Shown here: piece after piece, positions 10,722 to 34,914 of the stretch
Position numbering within the stretch: the first letter of the stretch is position 1
Layout of the letters: every line of letters starts with the position of its first letter
From: Gluconobacter oxydans
GTDB lineage: Bacteria; Pseudomonadota; Alphaproteobacteria; Acetobacterales; Acetobacteraceae
Direction: 5' to 3'
NCBI RefSeq assembly: GCF_006539685.1
Contig: NZ_BJNM01000002.1
Span: forward strand, 124,001 to 188,000
DNA length: 64,000 nucleotides
Position numbers and translations under genes: made by a program
The notes under the pieces: generated by a model
Databases searched by the model: none
What the model saw: the letters and a program-made list of their open reading frames with translations, nothing else
What the model was told of the DNA's origin: nothing

Positions 10722-11846
10722 GTGCCAGAGCCCACGAATTCTTCCCCCGCGCCTTTGAAAACTGATCTTCGTCGCGTCGATATCAATCCCGACTTCTGGT
10801 ATCCGCTGGCCTGGTCGAAGGATCTCAAGCGCGGCAAGACGATCGGGCGACGGTTCGGACGCTTTCCCATTGCTCTGGTGCGGCCTGAAGAAGGAAGTGT
10901 CTTTGCGCTTGAAGATCGCTGTGCGCACCGTCAGGTTCCGCTCAGTCTGGGGAAGGTCAGCGGTGAGGCGGTCCAGTGCTGCTATCACGGCTGGGCCTAT
11001 GGCCGGTCCGGGCGGTGCATTGATGTGCCGTATCTGGGCAAGCGCAAGCTACCGAATGGTGTGAAGACGTATCCCTGTCGTGAGGCTGGCGGGATGATCT
11101 TCATTTTCCCCGGTGATGCGGAAAAAGCGGAGAGCGTTCCGCTGCCGTCTCTGGCCCAGGTGGACAATCCGGCGTTCAAGACGCGGCGCTTCAGCCCGGT
11201 CGTGAAGTGCCACTACACGTTCATGCATGAGAACCTGATGGATATGAACCATCAGTTCCTGCACCGCCGCCAGATGGGGCAGATCAGGGCGCGTTTTCTG
11301 GGGCAGGACGCGGGTGAGAATTTCATCGAGGCGCGCTACAGCTTTGCGCGAACGGGAAACCAGCAGCCGCTGGCGGAACGTCTGATTTTCGGCAAGCATC
11401 ACGATGATCCGAACCGGGAGCAGCCGGTCGAGGAAATCGTCAGCATCCGCACGACCTATCCGTATCAGAGCCTGAAAATCCATGACAAGGACGGCGATCT
11501 GATCATGGAACTGTTCAGCGTCTATGTTCCGAACACGGCGGACGGGATGAGCACGCAGTGTTTCGGGTTGCTGTCGGTGCTGCGGCCCAAGACGCCGTTC
11601 CTGATTGATATGATCTGGCCTGCGCTGGGTATCTTTACGCACCGGATATTTGAAGAAGACCGCGAAATCATGGAACTGGAGCAGAACGCCTGGCGCGAAC
11701 TGGGCGGTGATCATAACGTCGAGGTCTTCCCGATCGTGCGGAAACTGCGGGATCTTCTGGCGCAGAACGGTGTCGCGCCGGGGACGGATACGGTGGCGCA
11801 GCCTGAAGTTTCGAGGGAACAGCCGGCTGATCCTGTCGTTGTCTGA
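10722..11846 (+). CDS. Rieske non-heme iron oxygenase alpha-subunit-like protein
   Basis: This 374-residue protein has a Rieske [2Fe-2S] domain with C67-x-H69 and C86-x2-H89 (RCAHRQ and CCYHGW). The catalytic domain has the mononuclear iron motif NLMDMNHQFLH, with D174, H177 and H181 as the likely bridge and ligands. Such enzymes hydroxylate or demethylate aromatic or polycyclic substrates using electrons from a separate reductase. No reductase or ferredoxin gene lies next to it. It starts at GTG 10722 and is followed 21 bases later by an aldo/keto reductase. The substrate cannot be named from the sequence. Confidence 0.85.
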   Translation: MPEPTNSSPAPLKTDLRRVDINPDFWYPLAWSKDLKRGKTIGRRFGRFPIALVRPEEGSVFALEDRCAHRQVPLSLGKVSGEAVQCCYHGWAYGRSGRCIDVPYLGKRKLPNGVKTYPCREAGGMIFIFPGDAEKAESVPLPSLAQVDNPAFKTRRFSPVVKCHYTFMHENLMDMNHQFLHRRQMGQIRARFLGQDAGENFIEARYSFARTGNQQPLAERLIFGKHHDDPNREQPVEEIVSIRTTYPYQSLKIHDKDGDLIMELFSVYVPNTADGMSTQCFGLLSVLRPKTPFLIDMIWPALGIFTHRIFEEDREIMELEQNAWRELGGDHNVEVFPIVRKLRDLLAQNGVAPGTDTVAQPEVSREQPADPVVV

Positions 11847-11867: not shown

Positions 11868-12713
11868 ATGAAAACAGTCACACTCAGGAATGGTGTCACG
11901 GTTCCCGCGCTGGGCATGGGAACCTGGAATATCGGCGACAGTGCCGCGCGGCGTTCTGACGAGATCGAGAGCCTGCGTCAGGGACTGGAGGCCGGACTGC
12001 GGGTGGTTGATACCGCCGAGATGTATGGCAACGGCCGGTCGGAAGAACTGGTGGGGGAAGCCATCGCGGATGTGCGCGATGACGTTTATCTTGTCAGCAA
12101 GGTCGTGCCGTCCAATGCGCCGTATGACGGGGTGCGCAAGGCGTGCCGGCGTTCACTGAAGCATCTCGATACGGACTGGCTTGATCTGTACCTGCTGCAC
12201 TGGCGCGGGGGAACGCCGCTTGAAGAGACGATCCGCGCGTTCGAGGATCTGAAGGATGACGGGCTGATCCGGGGCTGGGGTGTTTCGAACTTCGATGTCG
12301 ATGACATGGAAGAAATTGAAAGCCTGTCCGGAAACTGTCTGGTCAATCAGGTTCTGTACAATCTTGAGCATCGCGGGACGGAATTCGATCTTCTGGATCA
12401 TGATCTGAGCACCGATACGGTCACGATGGCGTATTCGCCGCTCGGGCAGGGCGGGGAGCTTCTGGAGCACCCAGCCCTGAAAGACGTAGCGTCGCGGCAT
12501 GAGACGTCGCAGGGGCCTGCCGATCCGGCGCAGATCGCGTTGGCCTGGGTGCTGCGCCGGCCGAATGTGATGGCCATTCCGAAGGCCGGGTCTCCGAAGC
12601 ATGTGGCCGGAAATCTGGCCAGTCTGGAGATCAGTCTGACGGATGCGGATCTCAAAACGCTGGACAGTGCTTTCCCTCCGCCGAAACGCAAGGTATCTCT
12701 CGCCATGATCTGA
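11868..12713 (+). CDS. Aldo/keto reductase
   Basis: This 281-residue NADPH-type oxidoreductase has an AKR TIM barrel. The catalytic tetrad is visible: D48 and Y53 (VDTAEMYGNG), K78 (LVSKVV) and H111 (LYLLHWRG). The cofactor-binding end shows ALAWVLRRPNVMAIPKAGS near residue 225. It lies 21 bases after the Rieske oxygenase gene and 12 bases before the hydrogenase-like operon, all on one strand, so it may be cotranscribed with either. Substrate unknown; AKRs of this class in Gluconobacter often act on sugars or ketones. Confidence 0.92.
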   Translation: MKTVTLRNGVTVPALGMGTWNIGDSAARRSDEIESLRQGLEAGLRVVDTAEMYGNGRSEELVGEAIADVRDDVYLVSKVVPSNAPYDGVRKACRRSLKHLDTDWLDLYLLHWRGGTPLEETIRAFEDLKDDGLIRGWGVSNFDVDDMEEIESLSGNCLVNQVLYNLEHRGTEFDLLDHDLSTDTVTMAYSPLGQGGELLEHPALKDVASRHETSQGPADPAQIALAWVLRRPNVMAIPKAGSPKHVAGNLASLEISLTDADLKTLDSAFPPPKRKVSLAMI

Positions 12714-12725
12714 CGGTCGTGATGA

Positions 12726-14078
12726 TTGCGGTCCGTTTCCACCTCTTGTCCGGACCGCGCCCTGCATATTTTCGCCTCCCTTTTCCACGTTGATCCGGTT
12801 TCTCTCTGCCTGGCGTTTCTGGCCGTTCCTGCCTGTGTGCAGGCGATGCAGCCGGGGCGGGCTGGGAGAGCCGTGGTTCTCTGTGTGGCGGCGCTGGCTG
12901 CGGTTCTGGGTCTGTCGCCAGCCGTTCAGGCTGTCGCGCTGGGCGTGATTGCGGCGCAGGACCGGGAGGCCTGTCCGGCAGTCTGGAGCGTTCCGGCTCT
13001 GCTGTTGTCCGTGCTGTTCCCTGCCCAGACAGTCGTGGTGCTGGCAGTGCTGCCGGTCCTGTTCTGGTCCGCGCTGGTGCGCCGGCCTGACGGGGGGCAG
13101 GAGGGCGGGGCATTTCCCGCCGTGATGGGTGTTCTCGGCGTATCGCTGGTCTGGCATGCGCCGGCGGCGGTTTCGGCAGAACTCGTTGCGGGGCTTGGGG
13201 CCGCTGTCATCGGGTTGCTGGGCCGGTCTGTGCTTGGGGCCTGCCGTCCGGGAGATCTGGGGCTTTTGCGGCCTGTTCTTCTGATGGTTCTGGTCGTGGC
13301 GGCGCAGGCGGAAGGCCTTGCGGTCTGTGCCCGCATTGCACTGGAAGCCACACTTCTCGATCTGTCACTGCTGGTTCTGACGGCCGCACTGGGACGCGTG
13401 TTTCCGGTGCTGTCGGTGTTGCGGCTGCCGTTTCCGCCTTTGCCGGGACTGGTTGTCCTGTGGCTCGGGATTCATGCCGCGCTTGGTATGGCGGCGGGCG
13501 TCGAGGGGTGGAGCGTGCTTGGGGTGGGGGTTGCCCTGCTGCTCGGCCTGCTGGGTCTGTCGGATATTCTTGTCGTGGGGCGCGTGTTCCGTGCGTGGCA
13601 GGGACGTGTTTCGGGCGTTTCCGTTCTGCTGGTGGGGGCTGGAAGTCTGCTGCTGCCCGCTCTGGTGTTCGGAATGCTCAGTCCGGTCCTGCATTTCGTG
13701 GGTGGAGAGTGGGTCTGGCCTGTCTGGCGTATGGGCGGCGGCGATGGCGCCTCTCTGCGCTTGCCGGCTTTCGTGCTGACGGGGGCGGTTCTGTGGTGTG
13801 TGCTGGTGCGTCCATGGCAGATTGTCGGAGGGATCGTGCAGACGGCCTCCATGCTTCTTCCTGCACTGGGGAATCTGCTTTCGGTCGGAGACGGTCTGTT
13901 TGAGGAAGCGCCCTCCCTGGGCTGGAAAATGCGCTGCGTTATTGTGGAGGGGCGTCGTCGTCTCAGAGTGCTCCAAGGCATGAAGGCTCCTGTCCTTCCC
14001 GATCTGCGTCAGGGTGCGGTGGGGCTCTGGCTTATGCTTCTTGGTCTCGTTCTGGCGGTGCTGGGAGTGATGGCGTGA
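12726..14078 (+). CDS. HyfB/NuoL-M-N-like antiporter-type membrane subunit, degenerate
   Basis: This 450-residue, very hydrophobic protein (at least ten probable membrane helices) is the first gene of the hydrogenase-like operon. Its placement, topology and the segment RLPFPPLPGLVVLW near residue 238 suggest a relative of HyfB and the NuoL/M/N antiporter-like subunits. It is shorter than the roughly 670-residue HyfB I recall. It has only two lysines, both near the C-terminus (GWKMRC, QGMKAP), so the membrane lysines usual in proton-pumping homologues are absent. The start is a TTG directly after an in-frame stop, with no clear ribosome site, so it is uncertain. It overlaps the next gene by GTGA. 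Confidence 0.6.
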   Translation: MRSVSTSCPDRALHIFASLFHVDPVSLCLAFLAVPACVQAMQPGRAGRAVVLCVAALAAVLGLSPAVQAVALGVIAAQDREACPAVWSVPALLLSVLFPAQTVVVLAVLPVLFWSALVRRPDGGQEGGAFPAVMGVLGVSLVWHAPAAVSAELVAGLGAAVIGLLGRSVLGACRPGDLGLLRPVLLMVLVVAAQAEGLAVCARIALEATLLDLSLLVLTAALGRVFPVLSVLRLPFPPLPGLVVLWLGIHAALGMAAGVEGWSVLGVGVALLLGLLGLSDILVVGRVFRAWQGRVSGVSVLLVGAGSLLLPALVFGMLSPVLHFVGGEWVWPVWRMGGGDGASLRLPAFVLTGAVLWCVLVRPWQIVGGIVQTASMLLPALGNLLSVGDGLFEEAPSLGWKMRCVIVEGRRRLRVLQGMKAPVLPDLRQGAVGLWLMLLGLVLAVLGVMA

Positions 14079-14947
14079 TGGAGCATGAGATCGGGTTGAT
14101 CCTGCTGTCCGTGCTGGAAGCGCTGTTTCAGCTGGGGCTGCTTCTCGTTCTGGCGCCCGTGATGGGCTGGTGTCTGGACACTCTGCCGTTCTGGCTGGCG
14201 GGACGGTCGGTCGGGACAGTGCGGTTCCGTCTGTTGCAGACGGCTCGTTTCTGGAGATCGCTGGTTCAGGTTCCGCTGGGCGGGCGTCCGGCGCTGGCGC
14301 TGACGGCGGGTGTGCTGACGCTTGTGTGTCTGCCCGCGGTCACGACGGGATCGGTGCTGTCGTCGCTGGCTGATCCGCTTGTTATCGGACTGGTCGTGCT
14401 GCTGGGGCGCGGATTTCTGGGGCCGGGCCTGGTGCAGGGTGAGGCGGCGCGTCTGGTGCCTGCTGTTCTGCTCCTGTGTCTGACCGAGGCCCTGATTGCT
14501 CTGGCCGCGCCGGGAACGGACGGTCTGTCTGGTCTGTGCGCGATGCTGCATATCGAGCCTGAGCCCGGCCTGGAGGGTGCGCTTGCGGCCTGTGCGCTGG
14601 CGCTGGGAATTGCCTGTCCGCCTTTGCGTTCGGATGATGTGACGCAGATGCTGTCCGGACTGCGGGACCGGCATGAACGTGAGGCCGCGCGCAGCATTGC
14701 CGATGTGCTGAACTGCGGCTGGCTGCTGCTGCTGGGGGATCTGGCGCTGCCGGTGAGTGTGGGGCTGGCGCAGGGTGGTGTGCAGGGCTGGTGGCTCGGG
14801 CTGCTGGCGCTGGGTGGACGGCTGGCACTGACCGTGGCTGTGGCGGTCGGGCTGCGTCTGATGGCGCAGGAGCGGAGTGCCCGGCTGACGGCGCTGTTTG
14901 CGGGTGTGGCGCTTCTTCTGGCTCTGGCGGGGAGGTTCGGCACATGA
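14075..14947 (+). CDS. HyfC/NuoH-like membrane subunit, degenerate
   Basis: This 290-residue membrane protein is placed and shaped like HyfC/HycD/NuoH, the subunit that anchors the peripheral arm. The N-terminal helix and following loop (LVLAPVMGWCLDTLPF, then AGRSVGTVRFRLLQTARFW) can be lined up with the family's LAPLLxG...GRRGPxxxQ...L loop, but the conserved residues are mostly changed. It contains no lysine at all. The start is GTG 14075 overlapping the previous stop, or ATG 14078; the end overlaps the next gene by ATGA. The homology call leans on operon context. Confidence 0.55.
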   Translation: MMEHEIGLILLSVLEALFQLGLLLVLAPVMGWCLDTLPFWLAGRSVGTVRFRLLQTARFWRSLVQVPLGGRPALALTAGVLTLVCLPAVTTGSVLSSLADPLVIGLVVLLGRGFLGPGLVQGEAARLVPAVLLLCLTEALIALAAPGTDGLSGLCAMLHIEPEPGLEGALAACALALGIACPPLRSDDVTQMLSGLRDRHEREAARSIADVLNCGWLLLLGDLALPVSVGLAQGGVQGWWLGLLALGGRLALTVAVAVGLRLMAQERSARLTALFAGVALLLALAGRFGT

Positions 14948-15465
14948 TCGTCGGATTTGGATTACTGCTGCTTCTGGCGCTGGCGGGACTGGGCAAGGAC
15001 GGGCGGGGGCTGCCGCTTTATGGGGCGGTCTGTGCCTTTGCGGGGGCGACGGTCTGTTCGGGGCTGATGGCGCTTCTGACGTCTACGGCTCTGGTGGGGC
15101 TGAATGTACTGGCTTGGGCGTGGCTGCGGCGGTTTGCGCCTGAAGCGCCGGACCGGGCGGCTGTTCTGCCGGTTGTCGGGACGCTTGTGCTGCTGCTCGC
15201 GCTCGGACTGTCCGGTGCGGGGCTGGATCTCGCGCCGGTGCTGGGCGCGGGGGCGGTTCTGGCCGGTCTTTGCGGTGCTGCGTGGGGGACGCCGCTGGTT
15301 CAGTTCACGGGGCTTCTACGGGCTGCGGACGGGCTGGTTGTCGTGGCCTGTGTGCTGCATTCATGGCCGCTTTTTGCTGCGGCGCTGAGCCTGTGGGGCG
15401 TTCTGGCGGCGCTCGGTGTGACGCTTCTGCCGCGTCTGGCGTGGCGCAGGGTGGAGGACGTCTGA
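14944..15465 (+). CDS. HyfE/NuoK-like membrane subunit
   Basis: This 173-residue protein has about five membrane helices and one lysine. Its size and position between HyfC-like and HyfF-like genes match HyfE, which carries a NuoK-like region. The segment VQFTGLLRAADGLVVVA near residue 118 can be compared with the family's helix containing L-x-x-x-x-G. I chose ATG 14944 because it overlaps the previous stop (ATGA); longer in-frame openings upstream lie inside the preceding gene. The stop overlaps the next start (TGATG). Confidence 0.55.
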   Translation: MIVGFGLLLLLALAGLGKDGRGLPLYGAVCAFAGATVCSGLMALLTSTALVGLNVLAWAWLRRFAPEAPDRAAVLPVVGTLVLLLALGLSGAGLDLAPVLGAGAVLAGLCGAAWGTPLVQFTGLLRAADGLVVVACVLHSWPLFAAALSLWGVLAALGVTLLPRLAWRRVEDV

Positions 15466-16553
15466 TGCATCCGCTTGCTCCTGTCGGAACGCTGTTTGCG
15501 GTGACGGTCTGGCCGTTTCTGGCGGCATTCCTGCTTCTTCTGACGCCGGAAAACCGCCAGTCTGCCAGCAGTCTGACCTTTGCTGTGGCGGGGCTCGTCA
15601 TTACGCCGCTGGCTGTCTGGCTCATGCCGGGAACGGATGCGCTGGCGGCGGCGTGCTCGTGTATCGTGACGGCCATTCCGCTGCTTCTGCCGCAGGCTCA
15701 GGACCGGACCGGGCGGATCCTGCCGTTTCTGGTCACGGGCTGTGCGCTTCTGGCGCTGAACATTCACTCGGCTTTTGCCGTGACGGTCCTGTGTGGTGCG
15801 GGAACGGTTCTTCTGGCCTGGCGCGAAGGGCGGGGGCCGCGCAAGGCGCTTGTTGTCTGGGATATGGCGCGCAGCCGGCTTGGCGGTGTGGTGCTGGGGC
15901 TTCTGGGGGCCTCGCTTCTGCCGATGCAGCAGTCGTCGCTTGGTGCGGTGCTGCTGACGGTGGGGCTGTGCATGGTGGCGGGGCTTGGGCCTTCGCCGGC
16001 TCCGGCGCCTGAGGCAGCACTTCTGGATACGGGGCTGCGGTTTTCGGCGCTCATGCTGATGTTCCGGCTGAGTGCGTATCCGCTGGTTCATCTGCTGATG
16101 CTGATCGCGGGGTTCGGGACGATCATCATGCTCGTTTCATCGCGCTCGTCAGGCCGGAGCATGTCCCTGCCGATGCTGTCTGCCTTCGGGGCCCTGGCAG
16201 CTGCGACCGGTGAAGGCACGGCGCTGGTCCTGCTGCTGCTTGCGGCGCTCGGGCTTGCGGTTCTGGATCTGCGCGGGGCAGAGGGCGAGGACGGGATCGC
16301 GGCCGGAGCCGCGCCCTGGCCGGTGTTCTGTGCGCTTGTCGGGATCGGGCGTTCGCTTGAAACCGGGCAGCTTGTTCTACTGGTGGTGTGTCTGCTGCCT
16401 GCTCTGTGGTCGGTACGGCACAGGACGCTTCTGCCGGCGTTTGCGCGGGGAGAGCGGGGCATGGTGGCCGTGATGCAGGCGGTTCTGCTGCTTGTGGGGC
16501 TGTGTGGTCCGCTGTTTCTGGCCTGGCATCCGGTGACGGGGTGGCGGCCATGA
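15465..16553 (+). CDS. HyfF/NuoN-like antiporter-type membrane subunit, degenerate
   Basis: This 362-residue membrane protein sits where HyfF, the second antiporter-like subunit, lies in hydrogenase-4 operons. It starts MHPLAPVGTLF and has at least nine probable helices. It is shorter than the roughly 500 residues usual for HyfF and has a single lysine, in a loop (PRKALVV). The membrane charges expected of a proton channel are mostly missing, although arginines and a few glutamates remain. It overlaps its neighbours at both ends (TGATG and ATGA). The call rests on topology and context more than on motifs. Confidence 0.55.
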   Translation: MHPLAPVGTLFAVTVWPFLAAFLLLLTPENRQSASSLTFAVAGLVITPLAVWLMPGTDALAAACSCIVTAIPLLLPQAQDRTGRILPFLVTGCALLALNIHSAFAVTVLCGAGTVLLAWREGRGPRKALVVWDMARSRLGGVVLGLLGASLLPMQQSSLGAVLLTVGLCMVAGLGPSPAPAPEAALLDTGLRFSALMLMFRLSAYPLVHLLMLIAGFGTIIMLVSSRSSGRSMSLPMLSAFGALAAATGEGTALVLLLLAALGLAVLDLRGAEGEDGIAAGAAPWPVFCALVGIGRSLETGQLVLLVVCLLPALWSVRHRTLLPAFARGERGMVAVMQAVLLLVGLCGPLFLAWHPVTGWRP

Positions 16554-17989
16554 TGGGGATGGGGCGGATCATCCGTAGCGGCGAGCGGGTTGCGCTGTCG
16601 CATTATCATCTCGATGCCGAACAGTGGTGCGCGATGCTGTCGGCGCCGGGTGCGACGCTGCCGCTGATATCCTGCTGGGCGGATGATGCTCGTGCCTATG
16701 TGCTCCTGCTGGAGGGGGATCGTCCGCTTCTGGCGAGTAGGGCGGTGGAAGAGCGGCGTTATCTTGCGCCGTCCTCGCGTTTTGCGGGGGCGGAATGGGG
16801 TGAGCGCGTGGCCTATGACCTCTATGGCGTGGAAGCGATGGATGCCCGCGGGAACGGAGCACCGGCGCTGGATGAGGGCGGCTGGACGTCCACCTGGCCG
16901 CTGTCGTCCCGTCCGGGGCCGGCGGCGGGAGGATTGCGGCCGCTGGCGGGAAGCCATCTGCTGCGTCCCGAGCAGACGGGGCTGAGCGGACCGCTCGAAC
17001 TGTCCTTCGAGGTTCTGAAGGGCAAGGTCCGGAGTGTGGAGGTCTGTGCGGGCGGCGCGCATCGCGGGGTCGTGTCGCGTCTGCTGGGACGGACGCCGGA
17101 AGAGGCCATGCCGCTGGTGTCGCGGATGACGGCGGGTGGGTTCGTGGCGCATCCGCTGGCTTTTGCGCGTGCTGTGGCGCAGGCGCGCGGACTGGTTCCG
17201 GGGCCCGGAATCCGGGATGTCTGGATGGTGCTGCTGGAGATCGAACGGATGTCGCTCCATCTGTTCGATATGGCCCGGACGGCGCGGGGTGTGGATGCGG
17301 AGCTGCTCGCGACGCATTGCGATCATGCGCGGGAAGCCATCGCGCGGGCCTGTGCGGAGCAGGGCGTTTCGCGCCGTCTGATGGATATGGTGGCCTGTGA
17401 CGGGTTTCGGGATGGGCTCGAGATCGTGCCGCTGGCTCAGGCCGTTCATGCGGCGATGCAGCCGCGTCTTGCGGCGCTGGAAGAGCTTCACCGGGTTTTT
17501 GCGCCGCGTCTGGATGGGTTTGCGGTTCTGGATGTGCGGTTGGCCGAGCGCTTTGCCGTGGGCGGCGTGACCGGGCGCGCGAGCGGTCGCAGCATGGACA
17601 TGCGGCGGCGGGAGGCCGGGATGCGGCTGGAGGCGTTGCGGGCGACAGGATCGAGTCAGGGCGATGCCCGGGCGCGTGAAGGGCTGAGGCTGGCGGAAAT
17701 CCGCGACTCCCTGAAGCTGCTGGAGCGGATCCTGGGAAGTATCGGTCTGGAAGACGACGAGCCTGCGCCGGACCGGACGGATGAGGGCATTGGCGTGGCC
17801 GAGGGCGCGCGCGGAGACGTGTGGTACTGGGTGCGCTTGAAAGAAGGGCGGATCGAGAGCCTGCATGTGCGGGACCCGGGCGTGTCGCTGCTGCCGGTTC
17901 TGGGCGCGATGCTGCGGGGCTATCCCGTCAGCCGGGTGCCGGCTGCTCTGGGCTCGATCGGGATTTCACCGGCGGGGATTGCGCTGTGA
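16550..17989 (+). CDS. HyfG/NuoCD-like hydrogenase large subunit lacking Ni ligands
   Basis: This 479-residue protein fuses a NuoC-like N-terminal part (GERVAYDLYGV near residue 84) to a [NiFe]-hydrogenase/NuoD-like large-subunit part. The latter shows AHRGVVSRLLGRTPEE near residue 170 and a conserved VLLEIERMSLHLFD helix near 227. In hydrogenases the first Ni motif is R-x-C-G-x-C; here residues 192-197 read RMTAGG. The second is DPCxxC; here residues 442-447 read DPGVSL. All four Ni-ligand cysteines are therefore replaced (T194, G197, G444, L447). The flanking R192, H201 and D442-P443 remain, which anchors the alignment. It cannot be a working [NiFe] hydrogenase and resembles EhrL-type subunits. 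Confidence 0.78.
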   Translation: MMGMGRIIRSGERVALSHYHLDAEQWCAMLSAPGATLPLISCWADDARAYVLLLEGDRPLLASRAVEERRYLAPSSRFAGAEWGERVAYDLYGVEAMDARGNGAPALDEGGWTSTWPLSSRPGPAAGGLRPLAGSHLLRPEQTGLSGPLELSFEVLKGKVRSVEVCAGGAHRGVVSRLLGRTPEEAMPLVSRMTAGGFVAHPLAFARAVAQARGLVPGPGIRDVWMVLLEIERMSLHLFDMARTARGVDAELLATHCDHAREAIARACAEQGVSRRLMDMVACDGFRDGLEIVPLAQAVHAAMQPRLAALEELHRVFAPRLDGFAVLDVRLAERFAVGGVTGRASGRSMDMRRREAGMRLEALRATGSSQGDARAREGLRLAEIRDSLKLLERILGSIGLEDDEPAPDRTDEGIGVAEGARGDVWYWVRLKEGRIESLHVRDPGVSLLPVLGAMLRGYPVSRVPAALGSIGISPAGIAL

Positions 17990-18471
17990 AGACTGTGCAA
18001 CGGACGGGGCCTCTGAGCCTGCTTTACGCTTTCATGGATGCAGCGCGCGGGCGGGCGTCCGTGGAAGGAGAAGTTCCGCGGCGGGAGCGGCCGATCGGGC
18101 TGTATGTCCTTGAGGCCGGTGGTTGTGAGGGATGCTTCATGGAGATCGAGTCCCTCAATGGCAGTGCGTTCGCGCTGGAGCAGGCGGGTTTTGTCTGTGT
18201 GAGCGATCCGGCGGATGCGGACTGGTTGCTGCTGACGGGGGCGGTGACGCGGGTCTGCGCCGAAATGGTGGACCGGGTGTGGCGGGCCATGCCGCCGGGC
18301 CGGAGCCTGATTGCTGTGGGCGCCTGCGCGGTGGATGGCGGGCCTTTTCCGGCCGGTTATGCGACGCTGGGCGGCCTGGAGGCCCTGACGCCGGTGCGGC
18401 GTTCGATTGCGGGATGTCCGCCGTCGCCGGACGATATTCTGCGGGCTTTGCAGGAACTGGCGCAGGTCTGA
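17986..18471 (+). CDS. HyfI/NuoB-like small subunit with [4Fe-4S] cysteines
   Basis: This 161-residue protein matches the small subunit of group 4 hydrogenases and NuoB of complex I. All four cluster ligands are present: C47 and C50 (GGCEGCFMEIESL), C114 (VGACAVDGGPF) and C144 (IAGCPPSPDDI). The GCPP motif is the family hallmark. It therefore probably still binds the cluster next to the active-site cavity, although the partner large subunit has lost its Ni site. It starts at GTG 17986 overlapping the previous stop and is the last gene of the six-gene unit. Confidence 0.85.
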   Translation: MKTVQRTGPLSLLYAFMDAARGRASVEGEVPRRERPIGLYVLEAGGCEGCFMEIESLNGSAFALEQAGFVCVSDPADADWLLLTGAVTRVCAEMVDRVWRAMPPGRSLIAVGACAVDGGPFPAGYATLGGLEALTPVRRSIAGCPPSPDDILRALQELAQV

Positions 18472-23024: not shown

Positions 23025-24050
23025 TCAGTGGTAGTGATGTCCGGCGGACATCTTTCCGCGGAACACGTAGTACGAATAGGCCGTGTAGGAGAGGATCAGC
23101 GGCAGGAGGAACATCGTGCCGACCAGCAGGAAGGTCTGGCTCTCCGGCGGAGAGGAAGCCTGCCAGATGGTGATGGTCGGGGGCACGATGTAGGGCCACA
23201 CATTGATGCCAAGGCCGCTGAAGCACAGGAAGAACAGGCCCAGCGTTGCGACGAACGGCAGCAGGTGCGAGCGCGGGTTGCGCAGTCCCATGAACAGGAC
23301 GCCCGTCAGCACGATGACGGCGACTGGCACCGGAGCGACCAGTGCAAACTGCGGCATGGCGAGCCAGTGCTGCATATAGGTAGTGTGCAGCATGGGCGTC
23401 CAGATGGAGACCAGGGCGATCGTGATCAGCATCAGCGCGCCGAGACCGAAGGAAACCCGGCGCATCGTGTCGTGCAGTTCGCCCTCACAGCGCCACAGGA
23501 GCCAGGTTGCGCCGAGAAGCGCATAGCCGATGACCACGGCAAGGCCACAGAACAGGGCGAACGGAGAGAACCAGTCAAAGCTGGACCCGACGAACACGTT
23601 GTTCTCGACCTTGATGCCCTGGACGAGCGTTCCGAGGATGACGCCCTGCATGAAGGCCGCCACGAAGGAGCCGCCGCAGAAGGCCGTGTCCCAGAAGAAC
23701 TGGCTCATGGGCGATTCCGACTTGAAGCGGAACTCGAAAGACACGCCGCGCAGGATCAGGGCCAGCAGCATGAACAGGACCGGCAGGTAGAGCGCCGGAA
23801 GGATCGTGCCGTAAGCCACGGGGAAGACGCCGTAGAGCGCGGCGCCACCGAAGATCATCCAGGTCTCGTTGCCGTCCCAGACGGGGGCGACGGTGTTGAC
23901 CATAAGGTTGCGGTGATCGTGGTCCTTTTCCTTGAGGAAGAGGATGCCGATCCCGAGGTCGAAGCCATCGAGGCAGATATAGAGGAAGATGGCTGTTGCT
24001 GCGAGCAGCGCCCAGACCACCGGGAGCCAGAAGCCGGCTGTTTCTGTCAT
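23025..24050 (-). CDS. cydB: Cytochrome bd-type ubiquinol oxidase subunit II (CioB type)
   Basis: This 341-residue protein has the subunit II pattern: FLYICLDGFDLGIGIL near residue 22, then VAPVWDGNETWMIFGGAALY near 55, and about eight membrane helices. Subunit II pairs with CydA in the oxidase that reduces oxygen with ubiquinol electrons without proton pumping. It lies five bases downstream of cydA. The C-terminus is His-rich (SAGHHYH). The accompanying short-Q-loop subunit I makes this the cyanide-insensitive (CioAB) class. Confidence 0.94.
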   Translation of the reverse strand: MTETAGFWLPVVWALLAATAIFLYICLDGFDLGIGILFLKEKDHDHRNLMVNTVAPVWDGNETWMIFGGAALYGVFPVAYGTILPALYLPVLFMLLALILRGVSFEFRFKSESPMSQFFWDTAFCGGSFVAAFMQGVILGTLVQGIKVENNVFVGSSFDWFSPFALFCGLAVVIGYALLGATWLLWRCEGELHDTMRRVSFGLGALMLITIALVSIWTPMLHTTYMQHWLAMPQFALVAPVPVAVIVLTGVLFMGLRNPRSHLLPFVATLGLFFLCFSGLGINVWPYIVPPTITIWQASSPPESQTFLLVGTMFLLPLILSYTAYSYYVFRGKMSAGHHYH

Positions 24051-24055
24051 GGTTC

Positions 24056-25483
24056 TTACTCCGCCATGCCAGCGTCGGGCTGGGGCTGATGGGAAACCTG
24101 TGTTGTACCCGCAGCGCGCTGGGGCTGATCTTCGGCCGGACCATGCTGATCCGGATGGGGCTCTTCGGCGAAGGTCCGCAGCAGGATGGTGATGCCGCCT
24201 GTGAACACGATGAAATAGACGATGACAAAAGCGATCATCGACGTCGCGATGTTCGGCAGGGCGATCGGGGAGACGCTGTCGGACGTCCGCAGCAGGCCAT
24301 AGACCGTGAAGGGCTGACGACCGACTTCAGTCGTGATCCAGCCGCAGAGCAGTGCCAGGAAGCCCGCAGGCGACATGAACAGCGCGATACGGTGCAGAAG
24401 CGGTGTATCGTACAGCTTGCCCTTCCAGCGCAGGTACAGCGACCACAGTCCGACCAGCACCATCAGCATGCCAAGTGCGATCATGATGCGGAAGGAGAAG
24501 AACAGCAGCGGGGAGTAGGGACGGTCTTCCTTCGGATAGTCCTTCAGGCCCGGCACCTTGCCATCGAGGCTGTGCGTCAGGATCAGCGAACCCAGATAGG
24601 GGATGGCGATCTTGAAATGCGTCGTCTCGTTCTTCATGTCCGGAATGCCGAACAGAAGCTCCGGAGCGTGGCTTTCGGACTCCCAGTCGCCTTCGAGGGC
24701 TGCGATCTTGGCCGGCTGGTATTCCAGCGTGTTCAGGCCCTGCGTATCGCCAGCCAGAACCTGGATCGGGGAGACGATGGCAGCCATCCACATGGCCATG
24801 GAGAACATCAGGCGGACCTGTTCGGACGCCTGACGGCCTTCACGACGGGCCTTGAGCAGATGCCATCCGGCAACGCCAGCCACGATGAACGCCACGCACA
24901 GAAAGGCCGCGAGGCCCATGTGCACGATGCGGTACGGGAAGGAGGGGTTGAAGACGATCTGCCACCAGTCAACCGGCAGGAACCGGCCCGTGGCTTCGTC
25001 GATGCGGTAGCCGCGCGGGGTCTGCATCCAGGAATTGGACGACAGGATCCAGCTCATGGAGATCAGCGTGCCGATCGAGACCATGCAGGTGGCGGCAAAG
25101 TGCAGGCCTTTGCCGACGCGGTTGAGGCCGAACATCATGACGCCGAGGAAGCCGGCTTCAAGGAAGAAGGCCGTCATGACCTCGTAGGCCAGCATCGGAC
25201 CAAGGATCGGACCGGCTTTCTGTGAGAAAGACGACCAGTTGGTTCCGAACTCGTAGGACATGACGAGGCCGGAGACCACGCCCATGCCGAAGACGACGGA
25301 GAAAACTTTCAGCCAGTATTTGAAAAGGTCGAGATAGGCGCTGCGACCCGTTTTGAGCCACAGGCCTTCGAGGACTGCGAGATAGGCTGCGAGACCGATC
25401 GAGAATGCCGGGAACACGATGTGGAACCCGACCGTAAACGCGAACTGGAAACGCGCCAAGAATAGAGCCGACAAGCCAAACAT
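24056..25483 (-). CDS. cydA: Cytochrome bd-type ubiquinol oxidase subunit I (CioA type)
   Basis: This 475-residue subunit carries the hemes and quinol site. H21 (FTVGFHIVFPAFS) is a likely axial ligand of the high-spin heme, and the histidine in YRIVHMGLAAF near residue 185 of heme b558. The signature GWITTEVGRQPF appears near residue 390. The short Q-loop and total length match the cyanide-insensitive oxidase described in Gluconobacter and Pseudomonas. The C-terminal 35 residues are hydrophilic and Pro/Gln-rich. An FNR-like box about 180 bases upstream suggests oxygen-dependent control. Confidence 0.95.
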   Translation of the reverse strand: MFGLSALFLARFQFAFTVGFHIVFPAFSIGLAAYLAVLEGLWLKTGRSAYLDLFKYWLKVFSVVFGMGVVSGLVMSYEFGTNWSSFSQKAGPILGPMLAYEVMTAFFLEAGFLGVMMFGLNRVGKGLHFAATCMVSIGTLISMSWILSSNSWMQTPRGYRIDEATGRFLPVDWWQIVFNPSFPYRIVHMGLAAFLCVAFIVAGVAGWHLLKARREGRQASEQVRLMFSMAMWMAAIVSPIQVLAGDTQGLNTLEYQPAKIAALEGDWESESHAPELLFGIPDMKNETTHFKIAIPYLGSLILTHSLDGKVPGLKDYPKEDRPYSPLLFFSFRIMIALGMLMVLVGLWSLYLRWKGKLYDTPLLHRIALFMSPAGFLALLCGWITTEVGRQPFTVYGLLRTSDSVSPIALPNIATSMIAFVIVYFIVFTGGITILLRTFAEEPHPDQHGPAEDQPQRAAGTTQVSHQPQPDAGMAE

Positions 25484-31043: not shown

Positions 31044-31159
31044 AGATATGGCTTCCAGTGGTCCGGCAACGGGAGTTAGTCTTCGCCCCTGAAAACGGAC
31101 GAATGGTTCACCTCGGACTAGCTGCAAGAGAACGCCAATGCAAACTTTCCCGTGCTGTC

Positions 31160-32980
31160 ATGCCTTTTCCTGAGTTCGAGATGCCTATGGTGACGTCCAA
31201 CATGCCCCGGGTGGTTCTTGTGGAGCCCGATTGTGACCATGCCCGGCAGATTGCCCAGGTTCTGGTGAAGGAGGGGTTTGCCCTCACCTGCGCCACGAGT
31301 GGCGAAGAGGCGCTGGGCACGATCGAGGAGACCATGCCGGATCTGGTGGTCGCCTGTACCGAACTGCCGGGCATGAGTGGTGGCCAGCTGGCGCGGCGGC
31401 TGCGGCTGGATGCGCTGACCCGGAACATCCCGATCCTGATGCTGACGGAGGATGCGTCGCCGGGGGTGGAGCGTGAGGGGCTGGAGAGCGGCGCGGACGC
31501 CTATATTTCCAAGTCGGCCCATCCGGATCTCATGGTGCTGCGGATGCGGGCTCTGCTGCGGGAAGGGCCGGAACTCCTTCAGGTCGATGAGGCATCCCGC
31601 CTGCGCCGGGCGCGGATCGTGATCGTCAATTCTCCGCGTGAGGATGAAGACGAGGAAGAAGTCGTCGAGGACGTGCCGGAAACCACTCTGGGAGAACTGC
31701 TCTGGCGTGATGGGCATACCGTCACCTCCATCGAGCGGTCCGACGATCTGATTGAGGGTGGCTGGCTTCGGGGGGCGGACAGTCCGGACTGTCTGGTGCT
31801 GGAACTGGGCAGCGGGGACGAGGATCTGAAGTTCTGCCGTCTTCTGGATGCGCGTCGGCAGGCGGTGCTGGAAGCGGGCGGGATTCCGTTCCGGACGCTG
31901 GGCATTGTGGAGGCGTCGCGTTTCCGAAGGCAATCTTCCGGTGAGTTCTTCGAGGCCGGGATTGATGATCTCGTGCCAAGCGATATTGCGCTTGAGGCGC
32001 TGGCCATGCGGATCCGGACGCTGGCGCAGCGGAGGATGGCGCAGGACGAGTTCCGTCAGCAGGAAATCGAGCGTCAGCAGAACGCCCTGACGCTTGAAGC
32101 CGCGCGCGCCAAGGCGGAAATGGCTGAGGCGCTGGCGCAGGCCAACATGGAGCTGGCGCGGACGAACGAACGGCTTCTCCAGGCGCAGTCCAAGCTCGTG
32201 CAAACGGCGAAAATGGCGTCGCTGGGTGAGCTGGTGGCGGGCATTGCGCATGAAATCAACAATCCGCTGGCCTTTACGATCGCACATGCGGATACGGTGA
32301 CGCGGACCCTCAAGCGGTTGCAGGGGGTGAATGCCTCCGACGAGGCGATGTCCCTGACAAAAAAGGGAATGTCACGGCTGGAGTCCATGAAACTCGGTTT
32401 GCAGCGCATCCAGAACCTTGTTCTGAGCCTGCGGCGGTTTTCACGACTGGATGAGAGCTCGTTCCAGAAGGTTGATGTTCCGGCAGCGCTGGAAACCGCG
32501 CTCGCTCTTCTGGCGCACAAGCTGGGGCCGGGGATCATCGTGCAGAAGGATCTGCAGGCGCCGGCCGAACTGGTCTGCCAGCCGGCGTTTCTCAATCAGG
32601 TTGTCATGAACATCATTTCCAATGCGGCCGATGCGCTGGCGGACATGTCCACGGACGGAGATATCGTGCGCGGCAGGATCGTCATTGCCTCGCGTCTGGA
32701 AAACGGGCGCTACGAAATGAGTGTGAGTGACGACGGACCGGGGCTGCCGCCTGACCTGCGGACGCGGATATTCGATCCGTTCTTCACGACCAAGCCCGTG
32801 GGAACCGGGACAGGTCTGGGGCTGGCCATTGCCTATAGCGTCATGGAGGCGCATGACGGGGTGATTGAGGTAACGGACGCCAATCTGCTGGACGGGCGCG
32901 GGATCGGAGCGTGTTTCCGGATGAGTCTGCCCGTTCGCATGACCGAGGAGGGGCCGGTGGCGACTGGTCGTGCAGCATGA
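31160..32980 (+). CDS. Sensor histidine kinase with degenerate receiver domains
   Basis: This protein of about 606 residues has no membrane helix. An N-terminal receiver domain reads PDLVVACTELPGMSGG near residue 60: Cys66 stands where the phospho-acceptor Asp is expected, while the Thr (MLTED) and Lys (YISKSA) sites remain. A second receiver-like fold follows, broken by an acidic insert (SPREDEDEEEVVEDV) and with Glu at the acceptor site (LVLELGSG). A coiled coil leads to a complete kinase core: H-box LVAGIAHEINNPLAF, N-box VVMNIISNAADAL, DDGPGLPP and FFTTKPVGTGTGLGLA. The start is uncertain; ATGs at 31187 and 31202 are alternatives. It overlaps the next kinase by ATGA, implying joint function. 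Confidence 0.82.
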   Translation: MPFPEFEMPMVTSNMPRVVLVEPDCDHARQIAQVLVKEGFALTCATSGEEALGTIEETMPDLVVACTELPGMSGGQLARRLRLDALTRNIPILMLTEDASPGVEREGLESGADAYISKSAHPDLMVLRMRALLREGPELLQVDEASRLRRARIVIVNSPREDEDEEEVVEDVPETTLGELLWRDGHTVTSIERSDDLIEGGWLRGADSPDCLVLELGSGDEDLKFCRLLDARRQAVLEAGGIPFRTLGIVEASRFRRQSSGEFFEAGIDDLVPSDIALEALAMRIRTLAQRRMAQDEFRQQEIERQQNALTLEAARAKAEMAEALAQANMELARTNERLLQAQSKLVQTAKMASLGELVAGIAHEINNPLAFTIAHADTVTRTLKRLQGVNASDEAMSLTKKGMSRLESMKLGLQRIQNLVLSLRRFSRLDESSFQKVDVPAALETALALLAHKLGPGIIVQKDLQAPAELVCQPAFLNQVVMNIISNAADALADMSTDGDIVRGRIVIASRLENGRYEMSVSDDGPGLPPDLRTRIFDPFFTTKPVGTGTGLGLAIAYSVMEAHDGVIEVTDANLLDGRGIGACFRMSLPVRMTEEGPVATGRAA

Positions 32981-34914
32981 CTTTCTGGAGTGCCAAAGGG
33001 CCGTCGCGCCCGCTGATCCTGCTGGTTGACGATGAGGAGGAGATCCTCGTCGCCCTGACGGATCTGCTGGAAGACCAGTATGAAATCCTGTCCACCACGG
33101 ACCCGTTGAAGGCGCTGGATCTGCTGCGGGCGCACAGGGATGTCGCGACCATCATTTCTGATCAGCGGATGCCAGGTCTGACCGGCGACCAGTTGCTGAT
33201 GCAGGCCCGCGCGTTTTCGGATGCCCGCAGTATTCTGCTGACAGGATATGCCGATCTGGAGGCTGTCGTCTCCGCGCTGAACCAGGGGCAGGTGCAGGCC
33301 TATGTTCACAAACCCTGGGATTCGGATGCCCTGCGTTCGCTGGTCGGCGAAGTCACGCAGCACTGTCTGGCGCAGCGTGCCCTGAGGACGGAGCAGGCGC
33401 TTTTGCGGGGGCTGATGGAAGCGCTACCGATCGGGCTCGTCTTTTCGGACCGGGACGGGCGGTGCATCCGCAGCAATGTCCGCGATGAATCCGAAAGCGG
33501 GGCCGAGAACGAGCAGGCCCATTTTCCCGAAAATCTCTGGTCCGAAATCACGGCCATGCGCGAGGATGTGCGCGTTTCAGGGCAGGAAGAACGTCTGGTC
33601 GGCGAGGTTCTTACGGAAGGAGAGGGCCGCTCTGTCACGCGCTGGCATGAGCTGACGCGGCTGGCTCTTGCCTGGCCGGAAGGCGCTTCCAGGGCAGATG
33701 CCTGGCAGGTCAGCATGGACCGGGATGTGACGTCCCGTGTCGTGATGGAATCACGGCTGCGTCAGGCCGAAAAGCTGCAGTCGCTCGGGACGCTGGCTGG
33801 CGGTATCGCGCATGATTTCAATAATCTGCTGGCGGCGATTTCAGGGTCTCTCGAGCTTCTGGAGGATATCGCTGAGTTTGATGAAGCCTCTCTGGCACTG
33901 CTTCGCAATGCCGCGGATTCTGCCCAGCGCGGAGCCGTTCTGACGCGGCGGCTGCTTCAGTTCGGACGTCCGCGTGAGGCGCGTCTGTCGGCTGTGTCGC
34001 TGGGGCAGTTGCTGCCGGGGCTGACGGATCTTCTGCGTCAGAGCCTCAAAAAGCGGGGTGTCCCGGCATCGGCGGCCCCATGCGCGCTGTGTGTGGAAGA
34101 CGTGCCGCCGGATCTGCCGCTGGTCTGGTCGGATGCGGACCAGCTTGAAATGGCGCTCCTGAACCTGTGTGTGAATGCGCGGGATGCCATGGCGGATGGC
34201 GGGACGGTGCGGATCAGTGCGCATGTCGTCGAGCAGAAGCGGACGGGTCTTCCCGTGGAATGCTGTCCGGACCGGGCCGTGGCGCTGGAGGTTGTTGATG
34301 AAGGCGAAGGCATGCCGCCGGAGGTGGCGGCAAGGATTTTTGATCCCTTCTTTACGACCAAGGATGTCGGGCGTGGGACCGGGCTGGGTCTGTCCAGCGT
34401 GTATGGTTTTCTGAGCCGGAGTTATGGCGAAATCGTTGTTGACAGTGTCGTGGGCAGGGGGACGCGCATGACGCTGCTGCTTCCCGTGGCGCGGGGCAGT
34501 CAGGAACGGGTTGCTGTGCCGCAGCTTCAGGGCGCGAAGCTCGAACGGCGCCTGAAGGTTCTGGTGCTGGATGATGAAGCGCCGGTTCGGATGGTGACGG
34601 CCGGATTTCTGGCCCAGGATGGCCATGAGGTGACGGCTGTGGCCTCGCTGGCGGATGCGCTGAAGCGTGTTGATCCGGCGTCTCCTTTCGAGCTTGCGAT
34701 CATTGATATGAGGATGCCGGATCATGATGGTCTGGCCTGTGCGGAAGCATTGCTGAAGGCCGTGCCCGGATTGAGGGTGCTGTTTATCAGTGGGCACACA
34801 GATGATATGCCCGCCCCTGAAAACGGACTTCTGCTGCCGAAGCCTTTTACGCAGGAAAGCCTGCAGCGGGCTGTTGCTGAAACCATGCGTTCTGTTGACG
34901 GTGGTGCCTCATAA
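32977..34914 (+). CDS. Hybrid sensor kinase: receiver, PAS-like, kinase, receiver
   Basis: This 645-residue soluble protein opens with an intact receiver (LLVDDEEE; acceptor Asp in IISDQRMPGLTG near residue 62; Lys in YVHKPWD). A PAS-like region follows (GLVFSDRDGRCIRSN near 165), then the kinase core with H-box LAGGIAHDFNNLLAA near 265, LLNLCVNARDAM and FFTTKDVGRGTGLGLSSVYG. A second intact receiver ends the protein (VLVLDDEAPVR, AIIDMRMPDHDG, LPKPF). It overlaps the preceding kinase by ATGA. Two receivers plus the partner kinase suggest a branched phosphorelay; no output regulator gene is adjacent, so the signal and target are unknown. Confidence 0.88.
   Translation: MTFWSAKGPSRPLILLVDDEEEILVALTDLLEDQYEILSTTDPLKALDLLRAHRDVATIISDQRMPGLTGDQLLMQARAFSDARSILLTGYADLEAVVSALNQGQVQAYVHKPWDSDALRSLVGEVTQHCLAQRALRTEQALLRGLMEALPIGLVFSDRDGRCIRSNVRDESESGAENEQAHFPENLWSEITAMREDVRVSGQEERLVGEVLTEGEGRSVTRWHELTRLALAWPEGASRADAWQVSMDRDVTSRVVMESRLRQAEKLQSLGTLAGGIAHDFNNLLAAISGSLELLEDIAEFDEASLALLRNAADSAQRGAVLTRRLLQFGRPREARLSAVSLGQLLPGLTDLLRQSLKKRGVPASAAPCALCVEDVPPDLPLVWSDADQLEMALLNLCVNARDAMADGGTVRISAHVVEQKRTGLPVECCPDRAVALEVVDEGEGMPPEVAARIFDPFFTTKDVGRGTGLGLSSVYGFLSRSYGEIVVDSVVGRGTRMTLLLPVARGSQERVAVPQLQGAKLERRLKVLVLDDEAPVRMVTAGFLAQDGHEVTAVASLADALKRVDPASPFELAIIDMRMPDHDGLACAEALLKAVPGLRVLFISGHTDDMPAPENGLLLPKPFTQESLQRAVAETMRSVDGGAS

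Follow-up and report, generated by a model that had tools for sequence, protein, structure and literature searches.

Energy-converting hydrogenase-related (Ehr) complexes, described from Geobacter, Methylacidiphilum and Nitrospira, combine NuoL-like and HyfE-like membrane subunits with a large and a small subunit, encoded by six genes in Methylacidiphilum (passages on Ehr in PMC6688271, PMC7894505 and PMC10284858). In those passages and in one of PMC6349859, the genes are named ehrABCDLS and pH homeostasis is put forward as a possible role (PMC6688271), the large subunit lacks the [NiFe] CxxC motifs and the function is given as unknown (PMC10284858), the Geobacter complex was more abundant on formate, its role there never having been investigated (PMC7894505), and a partnership of Ehr with formate dehydrogenase is considered possible (PMC6349859). 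The Geobacter cluster comprises seven locus tags, GSU0739-45 (PMC7894505), so a set of six genes is not universal. The Ehr passages of these four papers hold no established function and describe no eroded form. Our study examined a six-gene operon (HyfB-, HyfC-, HyfE-, HyfF-, HyfG- and HyfI-like; hereafter B, C, E, F, G and I) in a 64,000 nucleotide stretch of Gluconobacter oxydans (contig NZ_BJNM01000002.1, positions 124,001 to 188,000; hereafter the window). Judged by sequence, its membrane arm is eroded, as it is in the rest of the window's clade and in intermediate lineages, and since both the hydrogenase site and the proton-channel motifs are gone, hydrogen production and proton pumping are probably not what the complex does.

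The operon shares with Ehr the combination of four membrane subunits with a large and a small subunit, the lack of [NiFe] CxxC motifs in the large subunit and the lack of a ferredoxin subunit in the operon; it differs in that the membrane subunits are shrunken and their channel motifs gone. Of the Mrp/NuoL-type antiporter subunits expected of Ehr, F has the fold without the motif of transmembrane helix 7 (TM7), and B is linked only through intermediates and gave a poor model. An earlier, sequence-only reading had placed the operon in the Ehr class, and this stood by descent, given a full-size six-gene relative (locus L050) whose subunits are canonical and whose operon lacks a ferredoxin gene; the heavy erosion of the window copy had gone unnoticed.

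Hydrogenase-4 of E. coli has the gene order B-C-E-F-G-I, the same as that of the window operon. G is also related to subunit 5 of E. coli formate hydrogenlyase-1 (7z0s_E, E 9.3e-09), but the window differs from both systems in lacking [NiFe] ligands, a HyfA/HyfH-like gene in the operon and HypD, and in its eroded membrane arm. Respiratory complex I has homologous subunits, and F folds like NuoN/M/L, but the window operon has no input module and no channel motifs. Several relatives encode a second NuoB-like protein in addition to HyfI, and two genomes (G022 and G149) carry complex I-type PF00361 genes; unlike these, the window genome holds a single PF00346 match, which is the operon's G, and no PF00361 match anywhere, in agreement with Gluconobacter having, to our knowledge, no complex I. 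A complex I or hydrogenase-4 identity of the operon was rejected on the missing motifs. The membrane-bound sulfane sulfur reductase of Pyrococcus (Mbs) and Mbx are likewise complex I-like and non-hydrogenase, and F aligns with 6u8y_H, a chain of Mbs, at Z 25.5. In the open-access literature searched, we recognised no paper describing the operon in acetic acid bacteria.

Descent from full-size Ehr-type operons

Searching with G returned matches in 182 of the 200 sampled Acetobacteraceae genomes, NuoD paralogues included, and none in the other 18; the closest named relative was Gluconobacter potus, at 99 % over HyfG. Among 240 sampled Alphaproteobacteria, 58 passed 1e-30 with G; 22 of these held G-type relatives at 49-60 % identity (E ≤7.6e-110), and most of the remainder lay at about 30 % identity. 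The operon of L050, from another member of the Acetobacteraceae, is of full size, with B of 695 aa (PF00361, 1.9e-48), F of 492 aa (PF00361, 1.7e-47) and recognizable C (PF00146, 1.5e-35), G (PF00346, 7.7e-36) and I (PF01058, 5.7e-31). In the intermediate copy of Acetobacter fallax (L064), B has 586 aa and B, C, E and F are all without a Pfam match, while the shortest membrane subunits are those of the window's clade (Table 1). Many of the compared proteins were taken as stop-to-stop segments, so that their lengths are upper limits.

Within the window, G and I were assigned by Pfam scan. B, C and E gave no Pfam match at E ≤1, F gave a single match far below its cut-off and none of the four had an NCBIfam match, so the names HyfB, HyfC, HyfE and HyfF cannot be read from the window sequence by profile. 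Direct HHalign comparison of the window's clade with full-size subunits linked C, but not B (6.5 % probability), E (13.6 %) or F (0.4 %). B was reached through intermediates, which matched full-size B at 99.8-100 % and window-clade B at 88.9 % (E 2.4e-6, 80 columns). Window-clade F matched a part of the intermediates at 98.1 %; that part matched full-size F at only 53.9 %, although intermediates nearer full size reached 95.1 %. Because of this weak step, the claim for F is carried by its fold. The AlphaFold model of F (mean pLDDT 57.8) retrieved complex I NuoN, NuoM and NuoL and Mrp antiporter chains with Foldseek at probability 1.00 in the top rows, with a best E of 2.5e-3 and none below 0.001, and VIA-align gave Z values as high as 27.3 (297 residues, 3.0 Å). 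In this model, F retains the antiporter fold. Judged from gene order and the chain of relatives, plus the predicted fold for F, the four names are right by descent. The concern that the membrane genes might belong to unrelated families was not realized, as transitive profile evidence, and for F also the fold, placed them in those expected.

Many loci share a chromosomal setting. Among the 20 loci cut out first (more were added later), pepA-like and DNA polymerase chi-like genes lay upstream of the operon in 18, pssA- and psd-like genes lay downstream in 13, and an aldo/keto reductase gene lay beside it in 12, the last being identified by family scan and the other labels by reading of the sequence. 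The loci thus mostly occupy one old chromosomal place. A tree of G from Acetobacteraceae, rooted with 20 rows from other Alphaproteobacteria, requires one change between full-size and eroded forms; it came from a quick search and has long branches, and is tentative. Taken together, the sequence comparisons support the derivation of the window operon from the full-size, Ehr-type operons of six genes that other Acetobacteraceae carry.

Channel motifs, cluster ligands and selection

Motifs were compared in 16 full-size rows, 11 intermediate rows and 22 rows of the window's clade, the last from 12 genera among the sampled genomes. The rows are not independent, as near relatives are included and L062 and L063 are the same contigs as L033 and L034. 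The TM7 motif K..PxHxW of F was present in 16/16 full-size rows and in none of the 10 assessable intermediates (one was not assessable) or the 22 window-clade rows. In B it was found in 15/16 full-size rows, 0/11 intermediates and 0/21 assessable window-clade rows (one not assessable); the one exception among the full-size rows, L111, carries the motif in a frame other than the one picked, and a looser pattern hit one intermediate of 11 (L121) at a hydrophilic stretch, which we judged to be chance. In the alignment, the TM7 stretch of F reads GLCMVAGLGP in Gluconobacter versus GYGTKAGLVP in L050, the Lys having been replaced. All 20 loci from other Alphaproteobacteria carry a full-size F with the TM7 motif immediately before G, which tests, for F, the counting of these outgroup loci as canonical.

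The remaining two membrane subunits behaved similarly. The acidic loop of C (E..R.P.DNP) reads ETGRIPVDNPATHLELTMVHEAMVLEYSG in L050 and is unrecognisable in the eroded rows inspected; its pattern occurred in 15/16 full-size rows and in one eroded row, L047, where the string was judged to be chance. The Glu at the ENG column of E (NuoK-type) was present in all 10 aligned full-size rows, 0/9 intermediates and 0/22 window-clade rows; in the window it is replaced by Ala (AADGL). Locus L048 showed neither the C nor the E motif on the operon strand. F proteins of the window's clade contain 0-6 Lys, versus 2-9 in full-size rows, which is weak evidence by itself. From these sequences, classical proton pumping by the window complex appears unlikely, and the earlier suggestion of an ion-handling complex was not borne out for Gluconobacter, where the channel motifs of full-size relatives are gone. 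We also considered a complex of Ehr type that still translocates ions through rewired channels, as might be argued from the antiporter fold of F, its invariant charged residues such as Arg192, and the canonical motifs of full-size relatives; with the TM7 Lys motif gone from both antiporter-like subunits, the C loop unrecognisable and the E Glu replaced, we regard this as distinctly improbable.

CxxC was absent from the last 500 residues in 49/49 large subunits, and the lack of [NiFe] ligands excludes hydrogen turnover. The small subunit, by contrast, retains Cys47, Cys50, Cys114 and Cys144 at the ligand positions of the proximal [4Fe-4S] or N2-type site, and the four cysteines were found in 47/48 aligned rows.

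In Gluconobacter, purifying selection acts on each of the six genes. Across the window and 10 Gluconobacter loci, median dN/dS was 0.193 for B (8 of the 10 loci, two contigs ending before or inside B), 0.120 for C, 0.049 for E, 0.090 for F, 0.076 for G and 0.116 for I, so that B is the least constrained and E has the lowest value; nine flanking genes gave 0.028-0.124. Every operon gene was open over >80 % of the query wherever the Gluconobacter contig held it, and decay to pseudogenes in related strains, which would have undone the sequence-only reading, was not seen. These data bear on the idea of a decaying relic without function, which the shrinkage of the membrane genes and their fast evolution might suggest, the six genes being 34-62 % identical to Neokomagataea-type copies (L032-L034) and the flanking genes 41-87 %. 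However, Gluconobacter frames that stay open at a dN/dS of 0.05-0.19, and a window's clade that spans 12 genera, reduced genomes included, make a relic very unlikely indeed. The operon is also retained in several genomes of 1.9-2.3 Mb, and the window genome itself has 2.7 Mb.

Candidate roles of the complex

The reading that we favour, and hold to be about evenly balanced between right and wrong, is that the window operon encodes a membrane-anchored [4Fe-4S] module that arose from Ehr, does not pump and works with a soluble partner. By analogy with the architecture of complex I, the six proteins would remain together in a single complex anchored in the membrane, HyfG and HyfI being seated on HyfC, and the predicted single [4Fe-4S] cluster of HyfI would exchange electrons with a soluble partner encoded elsewhere. 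On the same analogy, the membrane subunits would not pump protons and would serve as an anchor, perhaps with quinone or lipid contact. The cluster could relay electrons to the quinone pool, or report redox state.

Several observations weigh against such a module. B could not be modelled: its AlphaFold model was poor (pLDDT 49.8), the best Foldseek E was 2.6, complex I and formate hydrogenlyase chains being interspersed among unrelated helical bundles, within noise, and model residues ~171-298 gave a Z of 10.8 with formate hydrogenlyase 7z0s chain C, no higher than unrelated rows. E is placed mainly by position, its direct HHalign link to full-size relatives being weak. A Glu lies one position beyond the ENG column in E of L120, and the invariant Arg192 of F, with a nearby acidic residue, could form an unconventional path. 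Loss of the large subunit from some small genomes speaks against a universal need, as two genomes of about 2 Mb (G066 and G116) have no G match and G029 has only a weak one, at 8.4e-6. Lastly, the two genomes of genus g100 (loci L123, L171 and L172) have lost the HyfI cluster cysteines while all six frames remain open. The ligand positions read G, C, G and S in L123, and its congener has the same motifs; dN/dS, from one pair and roughly trimmed parts, was 0.12 for G, 0.21 for B, 0.23 for F, 0.39 for E, 0.41 for I and 0.44 for C. With genes open, dN/dS below 1 and cysteines lost, redox work would not be needed in that genus.

Genus g100 lends weight to a fully non-redox complex, a membrane scaffold with a structural or sensory task, its HyfI cluster being only structural and dispensable, and the loss of every tested channel motif in eroded rows fits this too. 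The near-invariance of the four cysteines is hard to explain without use of the cluster, and g100 is one genus and one pair that may be losing the system; we therefore consider the scaffold improbable, if not strongly so. The choice between it and the favoured [4Fe-4S] module rests on the 47/48 cysteine sets versus the g100 exception. The broader proposition, that a complex of the complex I superfamily has lost both catalytic metal site and ion channels but is retained for a new job in Gluconobacter and its relatives, in genus g100 even without the last iron-sulfur site, is advanced tentatively and with some doubt; if true, it would be a relative of complex I repurposed for tasks other than redox-driven pumping.

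The loci form a natural series that starts with full-size Ehr-type operons, continues with operons that lack the channel motifs and ends, in one genus, with the loss of the cluster ligands as well; many of the loci share a conserved chromosomal place. The series raises the question of what use there is for a complex I relative that can neither make hydrogen nor, apparently, pump. The question lends itself to deletion in Gluconobacter; in the genome studied we found neither complex I nor any further antiporter-type subunit.

Operon layout and genome context

The window's operon is intact, with six open frames on the forward strand (12726-18471) in the order B-C-E-F-G-I, and all five junctions overlap (GTGA, ATGA, TGATG, ATGATG and GTGA). 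The six genes of the sequence-only reading, their order and the overlap at every junction were thus confirmed from the frames, and the identities of G and I by Pfam. The annotated TTG start of B is not conserved, since the frame opens downstream of it in L057-L060, four of the eight named Gluconobacter loci with complete B, whereas an in-frame CTG at 12762 is invariant in the eight aligned sequences of the region 12726-12764; the true start of B is therefore uncertain.

Table 1. Genes of the operon and of its surroundings, in window coordinates
Feature	Coordinates	Strand	Size, basis and remarks
B, eroded HyfB/EhrA-like (antiporter-like) subunit	12726..14078	+	450 aa as annotated; start uncertain, CTG 12762 possible
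C, eroded HyfC/NuoH-like subunit	14075..14947	+	290 aa; HHalign 97.1 % to full-size HyfC, alignment
E, eroded HyfE/NuoK-like subunit	14944..15465	+	173 aa; position and alignment
F, eroded HyfF/NuoN/M-like antiporter subunit	15465..16553	+	362 aa; AlphaFold model fold and alignments
G, HyfG/EhrL/NuoCD-like large subunit without [NiFe] CxxC motif	16550..17989	+	PF00346 6.7e-13
I, HyfI/EhrS/NuoB-like small subunit with Cys47, Cys50, Cys114, Cys144	17986..18471	+	PF01058 7.9e-24
Aldo/keto reductase	11868..12713	+	PF00248 1.7e-52; 12 bases upstream of annotated B start
Rieske-type oxygenase	10722-11846		PF00355 2.8e-22; 4beta-methylsterol monooxygenase model far below cut-off; before aldo/keto reductase
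Cytochrome bd oxidase subunits II and I	23025-25483		about 4.6 kb downstream of operon
Two consecutive genes with receiver and histidine kinase domains	31058-34914

The aldo/keto reductase gene is possibly co-transcribed with the operon; L035-L039, which come from small genomes, and L048-L050 showed none next to the operon, and it is a neighbour that the complex does not require. The only nearby Fe-S gene is that of the Rieske-type oxygenase, which among the searched loci occurs in Gluconobacter only. No formate dehydrogenase, 2x[4Fe-4S] ferredoxin or maturation gene, and no NADH or ferredoxin input subunit, was found in the operon or in the scanned flanking genes, which are not every gene of the window; to that extent the reported lack of a ferredoxin-like subunit, formate dehydrogenase and maturation gene holds. 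HypD, absent from the window genome, was present in 1/11 genomes tested. The cytochrome bd oxidase genes are on the reverse strand in the window and also occur in L062 and L063.

HyfI was present in 26/26 chosen genomes and lay far from the operon in six. In L037 and L039 other genes intervene, and hyfI has shifted some 4 kb downstream of hyfG. In five genomes (L095-L099, about 7.7-13 kb) it lies out of the operon, just upstream of nrtR-nadA-nadB-nadC; these families were scanned in L098 only, where hyfI overlaps nrtR, and were assigned by similarity in the other loci. In two other genomes (L041 and L045) nrtR stands directly 3' of hyfI in the operon, and in seven further genomes nadA is on the same contig, about 5-9 kb from the hyf genes. 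A link to NAD synthesis as a general function was rejected, as the window genome has neither NadA nor this NrtR, and NadA occurs in 88/200 family genomes versus 182/200 for a HyfG-type match (NuoD paralogues included). The quinolinate synthase NadA, without a match in the window genome, is present in the three congeneric genomes sampled, and it is possible that the window strain has a nicotinate requirement.

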